Below are positions 4,500 to 11,165 of a DNA stretch of 11,165 bases, piece by piece (the stretch's first letter is position 1; each line of letters begins with the position of its first letter). Below the pieces are notes generated by a model that worked only from the letters and a program-made list of their open reading frames with translations, was not told the DNA's origin and did not search any database. The stretch comes from Prolixibacteraceae bacterium (GTDB taxonomy: Bacteria > Bacteroidota > Bacteroidia > Bacteroidales > Prolixibacteraceae), in assembly GCA_016788685.1 (NCBI GenBank), contig JAEUSS010000537.1, forward strand, positions 1 through 11,165. Direction: 5' to 3'. The translations under genes were made by a program, and so were the position numbers.

Positions 4500-4624
4500 A
4501 AACAATTTTGCGGCAAAAGTTTATCGTTCACTTCAAATAAAAAGGCAGCCGCTATCTTCATTTTTAATTATTTCGTTGCATTTTAGCACTAATTAACCGA
4601 TTTGTAATCCGTTTCATTGCAGAT

Positions 4625-4639: not shown

Positions 4640-4708
4640 GTCCTATCTGATTGATTTATTGGCTATTTTTAGTCGTGCAAGATTACAGTCCTGTTAAATT
4701 AATCGTTT

Positions 4709-4737
4709 TGTAATATTTCTGTAACAGGGGTGTAATT
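4709..4737 (+). promoter_or_regulatory. Putative Pho box: three TGTAA repeats at 11-bp period
   Basis: The pentamer TGTAA occurs at 4709, 4720 and 4731, exactly 11 bp apart, with 7-bp units TGTAATA, TGTAACA and TGTAATT. Known Pho boxes are direct repeats of about 7 bp separated by about 4 bp, giving the same 11-bp period, and sit about 10 bp before the promoter's downstream element. Here the last unit ends 9 bp before CATCTTTG. The enterobacterial unit is CTGTCA; the middle unit here, CTGTAACA, is close to it. The nearby phoB-like regulator is the natural candidate to bind. Repeat geometry is read directly; the regulator assignment is inference. Confidence 0.6.
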
Positions 4738-4746
4738 GCACGGTTT

Positions 4747-4754
4747 CATCTTTG
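4747..4754 (+). promoter_or_regulatory. Candidate -7 element of the phosphate operon promoter
   Basis: CATCTTTG differs from the TAnnTTTG consensus only in its first base. No -33 TTG stands at the proper spacing; that region is filled by the TGTAA repeats, as expected for an activator-dependent promoter. Transcription would begin near 4761, about 28 bases before the ATG at 4789. Confidence 0.5.
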
Positions 4755-4788
4755 TATCGGATTAAAATTTTAACCCACATTGAATCGA

Positions 4789-5778
4789 ATGATGAATAAA
4801 TTGGTATTGACAGCAGCAGCTTTACTTTTTTTCTCGGTTATGGTCATGTCGCAGGAAACTGCGGAAATATTTAAGCCGCACGGAAAGCCGGTTCTCCGCA
4901 TTTTCAGCAATGCGCACACCACATTTTCCGATGGTGCATCCCAGTCGGCGTTTGAGTTGACCCGCGTTTACCTGGGTTATGAACATCATTTCAGTAAAGA
5001 TTTTTCCGGAACCGTAGTTTTCGATGTCGGCAATCCGGGAGCCGGGAAAATGCAGATGACCGCCTTTGTTAAAAATGCGTTCCTGAACTATAATTACAAT
5101 CGTTTTTCGGTCGATTTCGGACTTATTCCGACGACCCAGTTTAAGGTTCAGGAGAATTTCTGGGGATACCGCTATATGGAAAAGGTATTTCAGGATGCCT
5201 ACGATTTTGCTTCGAGCGCCGATCTGGGAGCCAGTATCACCTATCAGTTTAGCGATAAGCTGAGCGCCGATGTGGCCCTGTACAATGGCGAAGGCTACAA
5301 AAAACTGCAGTCGGACAGCCTGCTGAAAACGGCGTTTGGAGTGACATTTACTCCTGTTAAAGAGCTTGTTATCCGCGGAATGGCCGATTTTATGGGCAAT
5401 GATGTTTCGCAAAATACCTACGCCGGATTTATCGGCTACAAAAGCAAGAAAATATCCTTGGCGGCTGAGTACAATTATCAGCGGAATCATCTGATGGCAG
5501 ATCAGCACGATTATTTCGGTCCGTCGTTTTACGGAACGCTGGTCGTGTCGAAAAAAGTAAAAGTCTTTGCGAGGTACGACGATCTTCAATCCAAAACGCC
5601 TTCAGGGCAAACACAGGACTGGAACCTGGCTAACGACGGCAAATTCTTTATGACGGGGCTGGAATATGCTCCGGTTAACGGAATAAAGTTCGCACCGAAT
5701 TACCGCGGCTGGAATCCGGGTGACAAAACCGCACCGTTCGTTTCCACGCTAATGTTGAATTGTGAAATCAAATTTTAA
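4789..5778 (+). CDS. Outer-membrane beta-barrel, phosphate-porin-like
   Basis: The product has 329 residues from ATG 4789 (ATG 4792 is equally possible; a TTG at 4780 would add three residues). A signal peptide is clear: MMNKLVLTAAALLFFSVMVMSQ, with cleavage probably near the SQE. The rest has no hydrophobic helix but many alternating amphipathic strands with aromatic residues (LTRVYLGYEH, FLNYNYNRFSVDFGLIP, SITYQFSDKLSADVALYNG, KISLAAEYNYQ, VKVFARYDD), and the last residues are LNCEIKF, ending in the aromatic residue typical of outer-membrane barrels. The early half resembles the OprO/OprP (phosphate-selective porin) style, but I cannot confirm the family by eye. It stands first in the operon, 17 bases before pstS, directly behind the putative Pho box. 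I infer that it lets phosphate or phosphorylated compounds through the outer membrane. A general porin is the main alternative. Confidence 0.82.
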   Translation: MMNKLVLTAAALLFFSVMVMSQETAEIFKPHGKPVLRIFSNAHTTFSDGASQSAFELTRVYLGYEHHFSKDFSGTVVFDVGNPGAGKMQMTAFVKNAFLNYNYNRFSVDFGLIPTTQFKVQENFWGYRYMEKVFQDAYDFASSADLGASITYQFSDKLSADVALYNGEGYKKLQSDSLLKTAFGVTFTPVKELVIRGMADFMGNDVSQNTYAGFIGYKSKKISLAAEYNYQRNHLMADQHDYFGPSFYGTLVVSKKVKVFARYDDLQSKTPSGQTQDWNLANDGKFFMTGLEYAPVNGIKFAPNYRGWNPGDKTAPFVSTLMLNCEIKF

Positions 5779-5795
5779 ACGCATAATCAGAAATT

Positions 5796-6860
5796 ATGAA
5801 AACAATTATTTCAGTCGTATTGCTGGCAGTTCTTTTCAGTTCATGCCAGAATTCAGGAAAGAAAACTGAAAAATCGTCGGGCGAAAAAGTTTCGCTGACA
5901 GCTGCCGGAGCAACCTTCCCTCTTCCATACTATAACCTGGTATTTAAGAATTATTCTGAAGCGAAGGGCACTCAGGTTACATACGGAGGTATTGGTTCAG
6001 GCGGAGGCATCCGCAGCCTGACCGACAAGGTGGTTGATTTCGGAGCTACCGATGCTTATCTGGAAGACAAGCAGCTGGCCGAAATGCCTGCCCCGGTTGT
6101 TCACATCCCGACCTGTTTGGGGGCAGTGGTGATTGCCTACAATTTGCCAGGAGTTGATGAACTGAAATTGTCTAACGAATTGCTTGAGAAAATCTTTTTA
6201 GGTGAAATTACCAAATGGAATGATCCGAAAATTGTAGCCAATAACCCGGGAGTTCAGTTTCCGGGCAAAGATATCATCTTTGTTCACCGTTCTGACGGCA
6301 GCGGAACTACCCATATCTTTTCGGACTACATGACTAAAATCAGCACCAAATGGGCCGAAAAAGTTGGTACCGGGAAATCGCTGAACTGGCCGGTAGGCAT
6401 GGGAGCCAAAGGAAATCCCGGGGTAGTGGGAACCCTCAGTCAAACTGAAGGTGCTATTGGCTACGTGGGCTCGGAGTTCGCATTTGCTCAAAAAATACAG
6501 ATGGCCAAAGTGCAGAACAGCCAGGGCGAGTATGTATTGCCGACGATTGCTTCGGTTAGCGCCGCTGCCAAAGGAAATATTCCGGACGACACCCGCATCA
6601 TGCTGACCAATTCGAGCGATGCCGAATCGTATCCGATCAGCGGTTTTACCTGGATTATTTTGTACAAAGAACAGGCATACAATGGCCGCTCACTGGCTCA
6701 GGCCGAAGAAACCGTAAAGTTGCTGGATTGGCTGGTTGGTCCTGAAGCTCAGGCCGAAGCTGCAAATGTTAATTATGCACCGCTTACCGAAGATGCCGCA
6801 GCTAAAGCCAAAGCCATTTTACGCACAATCACTTACGACGGGAAACCGATCCTTAATTAA
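5796..6860 (+). CDS. pstS: Phosphate-binding lipoprotein PstS
   Basis: This is the high-affinity phosphate receptor of the PstSCAB ABC importer. It has 354 residues. The signal peptide ends in LFSSC with Cys17, so it is a lipoprotein tethered to the membrane, unlike the soluble E. coli protein; a short Lys/Ser-rich linker (18-31) follows. All phosphate-contact regions of the PstS family are visible: AAGATFPLPYY (36-46), GGIGSGGGI (64-72), DFGATDA (81-87), HRSDGSGTTHIF (164-175), GAKGNPGVVGTL (203-214) and GAIGYV (219-224). The Asp in FGATDA and the Arg-Ser-Asp-Gly-Ser-Gly-Thr loop correspond to the residues that hold the dianion. The gene lies between the porin and pstC with short gaps on both sides (17 and 16 bases), so it is part of the same transcript. 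Confidence 0.97.
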   Translation: MKTIISVVLLAVLFSSCQNSGKKTEKSSGEKVSLTAAGATFPLPYYNLVFKNYSEAKGTQVTYGGIGSGGGIRSLTDKVVDFGATDAYLEDKQLAEMPAPVVHIPTCLGAVVIAYNLPGVDELKLSNELLEKIFLGEITKWNDPKIVANNPGVQFPGKDIIFVHRSDGSGTTHIFSDYMTKISTKWAEKVGTGKSLNWPVGMGAKGNPGVVGTLSQTEGAIGYVGSEFAFAQKIQMAKVQNSQGEYVLPTIASVSAAAKGNIPDDTRIMLTNSSDAESYPISGFTWIILYKEQAYNGRSLAQAEETVKLLDWLVGPEAQAEAANVNYAPLTEDAAAKAKAILRTITYDGKPILN

Positions 6861-6876
6861 GACTTAATTCAGCTAA

Positions 6877-7728
6877 ATGAACAGCGACAAGATTACCAAA
6901 ATCGTATTATTTTCTGTTTCATTTATCATCCTGATTTTGGCCGGAGGTATGGTATTTTCACTCGTTGGGGGTGCGATACCTTCGTTTAAAACTTTTGGTT
7001 TTGGTTTTATTACCTCGGCGCAGTGGGATCCCACCGAAGGGAAAGAGCAATACGGGGCATTACCGTTTATTGCCGGAACGCTGATTACCTCGCTGGGGGC
7101 ACTGATCATCAGCTTCCCGCTTTCGTTTGCCACCTCGCTGTTTTTGGGTGAGTATTACCGCAACACCCGGGTGGCCAAGGTGTTGGGAACAATGGTCGAT
7201 TTGCTCGCCGGAATTCCGTCCATCGTTTATGGTTTGTGGGGTTTTTATGTACTGCGTCCGTTTCTGATCAGTATTGGTTTTGACAACCAGGGTTTTGGAG
7301 TCTTTACATCCAGTCTGGTTCTGGCCATCATGATTATTCCTTATGCCACTTCGCTAAGTAACGAGATCATTTCAATGGTTCCGAACGACCTCAAAGAAGC
7401 GGCTTATTCGCTGGGGTCTACCCGATACGAGGTAATCAGGTATGTTACCGTTCCGGCGGCCCGCTCCGGAATTTTTGCCGGGTACATTCTGGCTTTTGGG
7501 CGGGCATTGGGCGAGACGATGGCAGTTACCATGCTCATCGGAAATGCGAACCGGATACCGGACAGTTTGTTTTCAACCGGAAATACGATGGCCTCGGTGA
7601 TTGCCAACCAGTTTGGTGAAGCCGACGGACTCAAACTCAGCGCCCTGATTTCTATCGGCCTGCTGCTTTTTGTCATTACCGGAATTGTAAACGGGATCGG
7701 GAAACTGATCATCAAAAAAATGAGCTAA
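6877..7728 (+). CDS. pstC: Phosphate ABC transporter permease PstC
   Basis: This is one of the two inner-membrane subunits forming the phosphate channel. It has 283 residues with hydrophobic segments near 8-30, 62-90, 105-125, 141-160, 198-222 and 255-280. The EAA loop that docks on the ATPase is clear: KEAAYSLGSTRYEVIRYVTV (173-192), with the invariant glycine at 180. FGRALGETMAV (207-217) carries the Arg and Glu that are conserved in the Pst permeases. It is slightly shorter than the E. coli protein, mainly in the loop regions. PstC is told from PstA by its first position and the FGRALGET form; PstA shows SRVIGET. It is separated from pstA by one base, so the two subunits are probably made in equal amounts by coupled translation. 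Confidence 0.95.
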   Translation: MNSDKITKIVLFSVSFIILILAGGMVFSLVGGAIPSFKTFGFGFITSAQWDPTEGKEQYGALPFIAGTLITSLGALIISFPLSFATSLFLGEYYRNTRVAKVLGTMVDLLAGIPSIVYGLWGFYVLRPFLISIGFDNQGFGVFTSSLVLAIMIIPYATSLSNEIISMVPNDLKEAAYSLGSTRYEVIRYVTVPAARSGIFAGYILAFGRALGETMAVTMLIGNANRIPDSLFSTGNTMASVIANQFGEADGLKLSALISIGLLLFVITGIVNGIGKLIIKKMS

Positions 7729-7729
7729 A

Positions 7730-8608
7730 ATGAAATCAGTCAGTGGAATAGATAATGTCGGGATACGAACAAAGAAAGATCGGATTTTTCTGGGACTGGT
7801 GGTGCTGTTGTCGGTTGTAACCGTCTCTCCGATCATCCTGATTATTTTTAAGCTAATTGCAAAAGGCTATAAACAACTCAGTTTTGGTTTCCTGGTCGAA
7901 AAAATGCCGGATACCATGCAGGCAATGACTGCGGTGGCCAACAACGAACTGATTCCGGGTGGTATTGCCAATGCGATACTCGGAACCTTACTGATGGTTG
8001 TTCTGGCTTCAGTAATTGCCATTCCGGTCGGAATTATCACGGGGGTTTACCTTTATGAAAATCAAGGGAAGTGGATGGCTAACCTGACCCGGAATGTATC
8101 AGATATCTTGCAGGGAGTTCCGTCGATTGTGCTGGGGCTGATTTCCTACATGTGGGTGGTTAAGCATGTCACCATGGGCTTTTCGGCATTGGCCGGAAGC
8201 GTTTCGCTGGCTATTATGATGCTGCCAATGATTGTCCGTTCGACTGAAGAAACCCTGAAGATGATTCCCCAGACCCTCAAAGAAGCCGGACTGGCGCTTG
8301 GGATTCCCTATTGGCGGGTGCTTTTCGGAATCCTGATTCCGACAGGTTTCAGCGGTCTGATGACCGGAATTCTCCTGGCTGTGTCGAGAGTAATTGGCGA
8401 AACAGCTCCGCTGATGCTTACGGCTCTTGGCAGTTCAGTAATTAATACCAATATTTCGAAGCCAACGAGCGCCATCCCTTTAGTAATCTGGGAGTTTTAC
8501 AACGACCCCAATATGGTGGACCTGATTTGGAGTTCATCACTTTTATTAATGATCATCGTACTTGTATTTAACCTGACTGCCAAACAGATTGCATCCAGAA
8601 GAAAATAG
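7730..8608 (+). CDS. pstA: Phosphate ABC transporter permease PstA
   Basis: This is the second inner-membrane subunit and pairs with PstC. It has 292 residues, the usual length. Hydrophobic segments are seen near 19-44, 78-108, 125-146, 152-170, 198-218 and 265-282. The ATPase-docking EAA loop is [20 protein letters not shown] (184-203), and [11 protein letters not shown] (219-229) is the conserved PstA motif. The N-terminal 18 residues are polar and cytoplasmic. It begins 1 base after pstC and ends 8 bases before pstB, so the three genes form a tight cistron group. No missing motif or frame break is seen. Confidence 0.95.
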
Positions 8609-8616
8609 AACAGAAT

Positions 8617-9396
8617 ATGAATACAAACATATTACAGATTAAAGACCCGATACTTTCCATTCATGACCTGTCAGTTGCTTATGACAAGAACGTGGCGGTA
8701 AAGAATGTGTCTGTCGGCATTAAAAAGAATAATGTTACCGCTATCATGGGACCATCAGGCTGCGGGAAAAGTACGTTGCTGCGTGCTCTGAACCGCATGC
8801 ACGAGCTTTACGAGAACATCACCACAAGCGGATCGGTGCTACTGAACGATGAAGATATTTTCAAAATGTCGCCCATCAAACTGCGCCGGAAAACAGGGAT
8901 GGTTTTTCAGCGGCCCAATCCTTTCCCGACTATGAGTATTTACGACAACGTAATTGCCGGCTACAAATTAAACGGTATCAGCCAGACGAAACAGGAACGC
9001 GATGAGATTGTGGAACGCTCATTGCGTGATGTTGCTCTGTGGGACGAGGTGAAAGATTCGCTTACCAAAAAAGGCACATTTTTGAGTGGGGGACAGCAGC
9101 AAAGACTTTGTATCGCTCGTGCATTGGCCTTCAACCCTGAAATAATCCTGCTCGATGAGCCCACCTCGGCACTTGATCCGGTGGCCACATCAAAGATTGA
9201 GGACTTATTGATCAAGCTGAAAGAAAACTACACCATCATTATGGTAACGCACAACATGTCGCAGGCTGCACGAATTTCCGATTATTCTTTATTTATGTAT
9301 CTTGGAGAGTTGGTCGAGTACGGCAAAACCAAAAACATGTTCACCAATCCGCAGGACCGGCGAACGGAGGAATACCTGACCGGAAAATTTGGTTGA
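8617..9396 (+). CDS. pstB: Phosphate ABC transporter ATPase PstB
   Basis: This is the cytoplasmic ATPase that drives phosphate import through PstC-PstA. It has 259 residues, standard for the family. The nucleotide-binding motifs are intact: Walker [10 protein letters not shown] (45-53), Q-loop VFQRPNPFP (96-104), ABC signature LSGGQQQR (156-163), Walker B IILLDEP (176-182) followed by TSALDP, and the H-loop VTHNM with His212. The Q-loop form FQRPNPFP with the following MSIYDNV is specific enough to separate PstB from other ABC ATPases. The end, [12 protein letters not shown], is the usual PstB C-terminus. The phoU ATG begins 29 bases after the stop. Confidence 0.97.
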
Positions 9397-9425: not shown

Positions 9426-10154
9426 ATGTCAGTAAAAAAAGACGAAGCAATAAAAGATATCCTGACTGATTATGAGTCGCTGGCAAATCTGGTACTCAAT
9501 CAGCTCGACATTCTGGAAACCCTGATCTCGAACAGCGAGCTGCAGCTTTCTGAAGAGCAGCTTAGTGTTATCCGGGAAAATGAAAACAAACTCGATAAAT
9601 GGGAAGTTAAACTCAGTGATAATATCGTAAACACCATTGTACTTTATCAGCCTGTAGCTTCCGAAATCCGCAAATTAATAGCCCTTTACCGCATTGTGAT
9701 CAGTCTGGAGCGGATTGGTGATCTGGCCGTCAGCATTACCAACTTTATGAGGGAAATCAAGAACGAAAATGTATATGCGAGCTTGTCCGACTTCATTTCG
9801 AACATGATGATACTCAGCGTTAAAATGGTAAAAAATGCCATGCTTTCGTTTATCAACAAAGACATGGATCTGGCGATCTGGACCATCAGAAACGAAGCTG
9901 TAGTTGACGAGCTGAACCGGAAAATGTTGAAAAAGGCCATCGGCAAGGCTCAAAAAGCGGAAGAAAAGAAAAATATCCTGATCAGTTTTATCAACATCAA
10001 GGAGATGGTCTCGAACATTGAGCGAATCTCGGATCATGCGGCCAACATTGCCGAAGCTTCGATTTATGCCTACGAAGGAAAAGACATCAGGCACCACCGC
10101 AAACAGGAGCTCGAGGGAAAAACAAGATTATCAGATGATGAACGAAACGTATAA
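9426..10154 (+). CDS. phoU: Phosphate signalling regulator PhoU
   Basis: PhoU links the transporter to the PhoR sensor and keeps the Pho response off when phosphate is plentiful. From ATG 9426 the protein has 242 residues, like E. coli PhoU. An in-frame TTG at 9393 overlapping the pstB stop would add 11 residues with no PhoU character, so it is rejected. The protein is all-helical, with two similar three-helix halves. Each half has the metal-cluster motif: LERIGDLAVSITNF (94-107) and IERISDHAANIAE (198-210), the second followed by ASIYAYEGKDIRHH, a very typical PhoU ending. A charged tail (KQELEGKTRLSDDERNV) extends past the fold. Its 3' end overlaps the start of the response regulator gene by 17 bases, so their translation is probably coupled. 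Confidence 0.95.
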   Translation: MSVKKDEAIKDILTDYESLANLVLNQLDILETLISNSELQLSEEQLSVIRENENKLDKWEVKLSDNIVNTIVLYQPVASEIRKLIALYRIVISLERIGDLAVSITNFMREIKNENVYASLSDFISNMMILSVKMVKNAMLSFINKDMDLAIWTIRNEAVVDELNRKMLKKAIGKAQKAEEKKNILISFINIKEMVSNIERISDHAANIAEASIYAYEGKDIRHHRKQELEGKTRLSDDERNV

Positions 10155-10818
10155 AATATTAATTGTTGACGACGAAAAGGATTTGTGTGAAATCCTTCAG
10201 TTTAACCTGGCCAGCGAAGGTTTTGATATTGAGGTAGCCTATTCAGGAGAAGAAGCCCTGGCCAAAACGATCGATCGTTTTGATTTGCTGCTGCTCGATG
10301 TGATGATGGGTGGTATGTCGGGGTTTAAACTGGCTGACAAAATCAGGAAAGAACTCGGGCTTTCGGTTCCGATTATTTTCCTGACGGCCCGTGAAACCGA
10401 AAACGACATGCTCACCGGATTCAATGTCGGGGCCGATGATTACCTGTCAAAGCCATTTTCAATCAAAGAGCTTGTTGCCCGCATTCGTGCTGTTTTGCGC
10501 CGCGGGAAATCAGTTGAGGTTAAGGCCAAGGTGATTACGATTGACAGCATGGAACTCGATTTGAACCGCAAATCGGTGACCATCGACCGGACCCCGGTGT
10601 TGCTTACCCGTAAAGAGTTTGAGATTTTGTCGATGCTCGTTTTGCACAAAGGCAAATACCTCAGCAGGCAGGAAATTCTGGACCGGATATGGAGCGATGA
10701 TGTGATTGTTACCGAGCGAAACGTGGATGTGAATATTGCACGACTCCGAAAGAAAATCGGCGAATTCGGGCAATGCATCAAGGGTCGCTCCGGATACGGG
10801 TATTGTTTTGAAAATTAG
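10138..10818 (+). CDS. phoB: PhoB-like OmpR-family response regulator
   Basis: The product has 226 residues: a receiver domain (about 4-120) and a winged-helix DNA-binding domain (about 131-224). Receiver residues are complete: acidic pair D11/D12 in VDDE, phospho-acceptor D54 in LLLDVMM, T83 in FLTARE, and K105 in LSKPF. The DNA-binding domain shows LTRKEFEIL (156-164), the recognition helix region TERNVDVNIARLRKKIG (192-208) and the wing GRSGYGYCFE. An immediately preceding ATG (10135) would add one Met. The gene overlaps phoU by 17 bases and is followed by a sensor kinase, so it is most likely the PhoB of this locus. By its position it should bind the repeats upstream of the porin. OmpR-family regulators are alike, so the phosphate role rests mainly on context. 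Confidence 0.88.
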   Translation: MNETYKILIVDDEKDLCEILQFNLASEGFDIEVAYSGEEALAKTIDRFDLLLLDVMMGGMSGFKLADKIRKELGLSVPIIFLTARETENDMLTGFNVGADDYLSKPFSIKELVARIRAVLRRGKSVEVKAKVITIDSMELDLNRKSVTIDRTPVLLTRKEFEILSMLVLHKGKYLSRQEILDRIWSDDVIVTERNVDVNIARLRKKIGEFGQCIKGRSGYGYCFEN

Positions 10819-10908: not shown

Positions 10909-11165
10909 ATGATTGTACAACGCACATTCCGTCGACGAATATTCATCAACTTTTTTGTTGTATTTTCCATATTTACCCTGGCCGTCCTGGTGTATCAGTA
11001 CGACCGCGAGAAAAGCTACCGGACCGGGCAGCTCGAAAATATGCTCGATAATATTACCGAAGTAACTCACCGTTACATCGAGCATAAAAAGATTTTCGAA
11101 TCGGGTGATTTCAGCGCTCTGGATACGCTGAAATCGTTGTTGCCCATCGAAAATACGCGGCTCAC
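10909..11165 (+). CDS. phoR: PhoR-like sensor histidine kinase, N-terminal part only
   Basis: The frame is open from ATG 10909 to the window edge, 85 full codons. The visible part has a basic N-terminus (QRTFRRR), one membrane helix (about 11-29, IFINFFVVFSIFTLAVLVY), then a polar, probably periplasmic stretch beginning YQYDREKSYRTGQLENMLDNI and continuing at least to residue 85. This is the usual beginning of a membrane-bound histidine kinase with an extracytoplasmic sensor domain; the second helix and the H-box and ATPase domains must lie beyond the window. Identity as the kinase partner of the regulator just upstream is inferred from position. A terminator-like hairpin separates the two genes, so the kinase may have its own weak promoter: the A+T-rich stretch at 10864-10889 has TTG and a TATTTTG-like element, though not a good match. 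Confidence 0.75.
   Translation, partial: MIVQRTFRRRIFINFFVVFSIFTLAVLVYQYDREKSYRTGQLENMLDNITEVTHRYIEHKKIFESGDFSALDTLKSLLPIENTRL

Follow-up and report, generated by a model that had tools for sequence, protein, structure and literature searches.

Upstream of a phosphate-uptake operon in a Prolixibacteraceae bacterium (assembly GCA_016788685.1, contig JAEUSS010000537.1), four 7-bp half-sites, one every 11 bp, very probably constitute a PhoB operator of a Bacteroidota type, which would replace the missing −33 promoter element. The window, i.e., the whole 11,165-nt stretch that was analyzed, is one complete contig of the assembly. A preliminary description had pointed to three TGTAA units in front of the operon and proposed a candidate Bacteroidota Pho box, a proposal which is now supported by the association of the array with phosphate genes in relatives and by its presence at PhoB-dependent pst genes of Bacteroides fragilis.

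The three TGTAA words do start at 4709, 4720 and 4731 of the plus strand, at two intervals of 11 bp. A further unit precedes them, and the complete layout consists of four NKTAAY units with an 11-bp period, the last 7-mer being followed, after 9 bp, by a −7 box of the TTTG type:

4698..4704, plus strand: half-site 1, ATTAATC, conserved despite its degeneracy and in phase with the TGTAA words (11-bp unit 4698–4708)
4709..4715, plus strand: half-site 2, TGTAATA, from the sequence and aligned relatives
4720..4726, plus strand: half-site 3, TGTAACA, which is TTTAAT, ATTAAT, CTTAAC or TGCAAT in some relatives
4731..4737, plus strand: half-site 4, TGTAATT, promoter-proximal, from the sequence and aligned relatives
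4747..4754, plus strand: −7-like box CATCTTTG, 9 bp after half-site 4
4592..4609, plus strand: distal pair of units, ATTAACC at 4592 and TGTAATC at 4603, 106 bp upstream of half-site 1

The distance of 9 bp to the box, as described previously, holds for the 7-mer TGTAATT, but counted from TGTAA itself it amounts to 11 bp. The absence of a −33 element was also borne out: inspection of the window sequence by eye revealed neither TTTG nor TTG, the element typical of primary-sigma promoters in Bacteroidota, at that place, and the region is taken up by half-sites 3 and 4. If the CATCTTTG box spans −12 to −5, which is the placement of the −7 box in the available part of PMC9723704, transcription is predicted to start near 4759. 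No −7 box was recognized by eye after the distal pair; six of the 13 relatives (L003 and L005–L009, L005 with a poor score) likewise carry a distal array, whose distance from unit 1 is exactly 107 bp. The stretch just 5′ of unit 1 (4681–4697) reads GATTACAGTCCTGTTAA, is outside the 11-bp register, and is largely common to seven relatives of the genus (L003–L009), mostly as GATTACAAACCTGTTAA.

Behind the array, the following genes are read in the same direction:

4792..5778, plus strand: porin-like gene, first behind the array, with an ATG at 4789 or 4792 (identity read both in the preliminary description and here)
5796..6860, plus strand: pstS (TIGR00975, 337.7 bits, cut-off 205)
6877..7728, plus strand: pstC (TIGR02138, 303.1 bits, cut-off 196.45)
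7730..8608, plus strand: pstA (TIGR00974, 244.9 bits, cut-off 193.45)
8617..9396, plus strand: pstB (TIGR00972, 369 bits, cut-off 343.2)
9426..10154, plus strand: phoU (Pfam PhoU, 89 bits, cut-off 23.5)
10135..10818, plus strand: phoB, whose product is the candidate binder of the array (NF053854, RespRegPhoBBctds, 320.9 bits, cut-off 270)
10909..11165, plus strand, truncated at the edge of the window: first part of a further gene, by its position in the sequence probably the sensor kinase gene phoR

The PhoB of the window thus scores above the curated threshold that NCBIfam sets for PhoB of Bacteroidota, and phoU reaches 110.6 bits against TIGR02135, below its cut-off of 130.25. The porin-like protein, without a match in Pfam or NCBIfam, has relatives in 34 of 61 genomes according to a protein search, from which 30 loci were taken. 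A PstS gene follows the porin in 14 of them, the window included; the other 16 (L016–L031), without a pstS of this type, were omitted from the spacing histogram and the alignment, and served as negatives in the distal-array and unit-model tests.

Conservation upstream of orthologous operons, which the preliminary description had proposed as a check, was found at all 14 porin-pstS loci. In a gap-free alignment of these upstream regions, the four 11-bp units and their distance to the −7-like box coincide, and TTTG lies 9 bp past the last 7-mer in 13 of them. The place of unit 1 is occupied by ATTAATCG or TTTAATCG in 10 of the 13 relatives, and by TTTAATTG, ATTAATTA and TGTAACCA in L004, L012 and L013, respectively. 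Since it is ATTAATC or TTTAATC in most loci, the element has four half-sites, and the earlier idea that three units could mean one and a half dimer sites is ruled out by this conserved fourth unit.

Could the array be a product of chance, or merely of the shared ancestry of an AT-rich upstream region, with no function? Members of the genus do share long identical stretches here. Nevertheless, none of 1000 dinucleotide-shuffled versions of the window contained, on either strand, three TGTAA at a spacing of 11, and none of 1000 contained three at a constant interval of any length between 6 and 30; the exact pattern TGTAA(N6)TGTAA(N6)TGTAA occurs once, in the window, in the 3.76-Mb assembly (654 contigs), and its reversed control never. 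Moreover, the same layout stands before unrelated genes, and in the more diverged relatives (L010–L015) the units vary within the NKTAAY consensus, e.g., from TGTAAC to TTTAAT, while the period is constant. This explanation is therefore hardly credible.

Pairs of [GT]TAA[TC] at 11, 22 and 33 bp number 51, 31 and 15 in the 14 porin-pst upstream regions, against maxima of 4, 3 and 3 among 200 shuffle sets. With a unit model trained on 24 promoters of a different gene, that of the small secreted protein described below, the 14 porin-pstS loci score 27.3–42.1 bits (34.5 for the window), whereas the 16 loci of porin paralogues do not exceed 3.6 bits on the strand of the gene or 7.4 on the opposite strand; the best of 109,252 background positions gives 6.6 bits. 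An earlier unit model, used for phylum and background scoring, omitted B_L115, B_L116, A_L012 and A_L015. The negatives are not wholly blank, given two sites among the paralogues: at L029 (G033, same family), two TGTAACA units followed after 9 bp by TATTTATG, some 120 bp in front of the porin-like gene (3.6 bits), might be a pared-down version of this site, and at L026 a weak array faces a divergent phoB-like gene (7.4 bits).

The second set of promoters belongs to a stand-alone secreted CarbopepD_reg protein of about 115–140 amino acids, which was first spotted by motif search. A protein search of 61 genomes, with the upstream regions read, yielded 30 loci, one of which (L119, a long receptor) was not counted; the array with its spacing precedes the gene in 24 of the remaining 29, own genome included, and 4 of the 24 (G024, G025, G030, G031) are also motif matches. 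It is absent or unfit at L115–L118 and L120, four of which come from other families; L117, L118 and L120, without array, were omitted from the histogram and alignment, and L115 and L116 were kept though unfit (n = 26). In the window's own genome the gene is located as follows:

L153:1112-1456 (G000:C365:1851-2195), minus strand: small CarbopepD_reg gene, with orthologues L091–L116, L357 and L358

Its promoter reads TGTAACAAAAC ATTAATCGAAG CTTAATTCCGA TTTAATC, 9 bp, TACTTTTG. The position-specific matrix built from the porin set places it at background level (−21.9), a failure due to the near uniformity of that set; with a position-free unit model it scores 29.0, against a background maximum of 7.2. 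Pairs of [GT]TAA[TC] at 11, 22 and 33 bp number 70, 47 and 26 in the 26 small-protein upstream regions, with shuffle maxima of 4, 3 and 2. When porin-pst and small-protein promoters are taken together, a fit to HKTAAY is seen for three or more of the four units in 39 of the 40 aligned promoters, and for all four in 31; TTTG is at the fixed place in 34 (13 of 14 and 21 of 26, respectively). In some members of the genus the small-protein gene comes after genes for a MORN protein and a T9SS-sorted protein, and a SusC-like receptor of about 957 amino acids is encoded some kilobases away.

The preliminary description had suggested looking for the motif at other phosphate genes, and here the answer differs between the relatives and the genome itself. 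In 60 genomes of the family, the three-unit pattern gave 48 matches in 27 genomes, versus 2 for the reversed control. These correspond to 38 distinct sites, 17 of them before porin(-pst), porin O/P, pstS, phoU-phoB, phoB or PiT genes, 11 before the small CarbopepD_reg protein (one via the MORN gene) and 10 without a clear phosphate link, as judged from open reading frames, with ten of the proteins checked against Pfam. In two genus relatives (L032, G019, and L034, G020) the array stands directly before phoU-phoB, downstream of the same gene as in the window (TauE-like by eye), and the protein search finds no porin match in either genome. In the window's own genome, by contrast, no promoters other than those of pst and the small protein are conspicuous, that of the small protein being found by the protein search and by a pattern of two units plus box. 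A wide regulon there was considered but found no support, as the pattern with two mismatches gave 12 matches, mostly inside genes, versus 8 in the control.

At the genus level, two units, spacer and TANNTTTG gave 16 matches in 14 of 23 genomes, and none in the control. Twelve precede the small protein, including the sole match in the own genome; among the rest there are one TonB-receptor-like gene, one site about 190 bp before phoU-phoB and two unclear cases, and no pst promoter is found among these matches. Ten of the 16 loci were inspected, the other six coinciding in place with small-protein loci. At the order level, the strict form of the pattern is rare, with 16 matches in 14 of 198 genomes, versus 3 in the control, and 5 of the 16 lie before set genes: the small protein in two genomes of another family, a PiT gene, a DUF5690 gene, and a PhoB that passes the cut-off. 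Among 29 other PstS-like loci at the phylum level, only four exceed 5 bits, all with CTTAACA-type units; the half-site drifts across the phylum. Units of this type, with an 11-bp period, were seen around pstS at L121–L124 (G148, G175, G183, G140), in other families of Bacteroidota.

Another OmpR-family response regulator, controlling phosphate and envelope genes together, might be thought to use the array instead. Regulators of this family favor direct repeats of 10–11 bp; a search of the genome with the PhoB model yields 33 matches, i.e., many response regulators, and a paralogue is possible by sequence; moreover, 11 of the 38 family sites lie before the small secreted protein or its neighbor. 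We consider it unlikely, since the sites recur before pst, phoU-phoB, phoB, pstS and PiT genes, and since in B. fragilis arrays are found at phoB-dependent genes. According to the available part of PMC3547664, B. fragilis PhoB shifts in vitro a 512-bp fragment of the pstC promoter, a gel shift that does not locate the site, and in a phoB mutant under low phosphate the values are −428 for pstC, −103 for pstS and −52 for the permease BF3715. No motif, consensus or binding site for PhoB is named in that portion of the text. The published strain is YCH46 and the scanned one is Q1F2, and the fragment, too, differs from the sequence scanned; the equation of BF3715 with the scanned PiT-like gene is based on the neighboring kinase gene.

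In the genome of B. fragilis Q1F2, picked via a 16S pattern, the pstC array consists of six units followed, after 9 bp, by TTTCTTTG, and the same holds for B. finegoldii and B. salyersiae. The array is thus present at three of six Bacteroidaceae pstC loci; it was absent from the DNA around the B. mediterraneensis and Phocaeicola plebeius loci (L287, L288), and B. ilei (L289) has at most a partial array, upstream of pstS. The units of B. fragilis are more degenerate than those of the window (TGAAACA, CTTCAAA, ATTCACA). With the strict four-unit model B. fragilis pst scores weakly (at most 6.7 with the −7 box); a softened six-unit model gives 28.6–32.0 (0 of 400 shuffles), values that are partly after the fact, because this model was chosen once the array had been seen.

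Two units, the only ones that score, lie 9 bp before a TTTG-type box at the divergent pstS of Q1F2, and four units at the same distance from such a box at its PiT-like permease gene, which sits downstream of a gene resembling polyphosphate kinase (both identifications by eye). Genes for DUF5690 membrane proteins carry two units and, exactly 9 bp further on, TAnnTTTG both in Q1F2 (L346, G219) and in G308 (L368), hinting at a phosphate or phosphoester transporter. The pattern gave 10 matches in Q1F2 versus 3 in the control, five of the 10 without a known phosphate link. In eight Bacteroidaceae genomes, two units plus box gave 8 matches versus 1, located at pstS (two genomes), DUF5690, polyphosphate kinase, three TonB-type genes and one unknown gene.

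How does the array compare with described Pho boxes? At pstS of Escherichia coli K-12, four half-sites (CTGTCATAAAA CTGTCATATTC CTTACATATAA CTGTCAC) follow one another with an 11-bp period, as in the window; the third is a TT variant (CTTACAT), and the spacing between the last half-site and the start of TATTTT equals that to the −7 box here. The four-unit Bacteroidota model finds this box in register (0 of 400 shuffles). The core of the window is TGTAAY/TTTAAY instead of TGTCAY, and its downstream element is of the TAnnTTTG type instead of TATTTT. The PhoP box of Bacillus subtilis is composed of TTAACA-type direct repeats at 11 bp, with a TTAAC-like core, and by this description it is near the CTTAACA units of other Bacteroidota, although it belongs to another phylum and another promoter type. 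The consensus of the Pho box varies by species, and that of Streptomyces coelicolor PhoP, GTTCACC in direct-repeat units of 11 nt, is alike by description in period and different in unit (PMC4415409, available part). In view of this variability, the lack of the CTGTCAT core, which was not encountered in the window, bars only the E. coli subtype. Where a Pho box is expected to have at least two 11-nt direct-repeat units, with 7 conserved and 4 less conserved positions, the window has four; such arrays lie before phosphate genes (14 of 14 porin-pstS loci; 17 of 38 sites found by pattern), at a fixed distance from the core promoter (34 of 40 aligned promoters; 9 bp at four B. fragilis genes).

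This fixed distance also bears on whether PhoB binds but the promoter lies elsewhere, or the array represses, CATCTTTG not being the core promoter used. Exact TAnnTTTG is found in 0 of 14 porin-pst promoters versus 20 of 26 small-protein promoters, the window box being one mismatch away and those of all 13 orthologues deviating too, and the distal pair of units could likewise speak for another promoter. Yet the 9 bp to TTTG are seen at both gene sets, unrelated as they are, and again in Bacteroides, and the geometry equals that of the E. coli pstS promoter, which leaves little probability, somewhat less than for a different regulator, to such an arrangement.

With respect to the protein, the window PhoB is 37% identical to that of E. 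coli. In what we take to be the recognition helix, it retains R193, R201 and R203 (E. coli numbering); H198 and R200 are replaced by N and A, respectively, and in B. fragilis PhoB by N and T. In genomes with CTTAACA units at pst, the best PhoB-like regulators, which are below the cut-off, have H and R, with K for R201, a helix of the RTIDVHVRKIREK type. One might guess that changes in this helix explain why the second base varies between G and T.

The occurrence of the same layout before phosphate genes of related bacteria makes the array very probably a docking site for PhoB. Presenting one half-site (NKTAAYN) per 11 bp, the four would lie on one face of the DNA. Under low phosphate, two head-to-tail PhoB dimers would occupy them, the last protomer being placed just upstream of the −7 box, where the −33 element would otherwise be, and would recruit RNA polymerase to a co-transcribed porin-pstSCAB-phoU-phoB operon; with phoB inside its own operon, a positive loop would be established.

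Genes responding to phosphate starvation in Bacteroidota have been catalogued (PMC3547664, PMC8115612, available parts); in the open-licence PMC literature, in the portions available, no PhoB site or Pho box is named for the phylum (subscription papers, preprints and RegPrecise being outside this scope). Sequence comparison makes us highly confident that the array is a PhoB operator with a Bacteroidota-specific consensus, the preliminary description having been right in substance and one half-site short. It is somewhat probable, in addition, that a shared Bacteroidota code exists, consisting of two to six copies of (NKTAAYN5) and, at a constant distance from the last, a TAnnTTTG-type box, and having the E. 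coli geometry in spite of a different sigma factor and −7/−33 elements; it would expose new members of the Pho regulon, i.e., the small CarbopepD_reg protein, nearby TonB/SusC-type receptors and the transporter-like DUF5690 family, a possible importer of phosphate or phosphoesters.

The geometric identity with E. coli pstS suggests that promoters in different phyla are constrained by the way in which PhoB contacts polymerase. Once the half-site, its period and its distance to the −7 box are defined, regulons can be read from the genomes of this large group, PhoB dependence becomes directly testable, and the small secreted protein and DUF5690 gain a first functional context.
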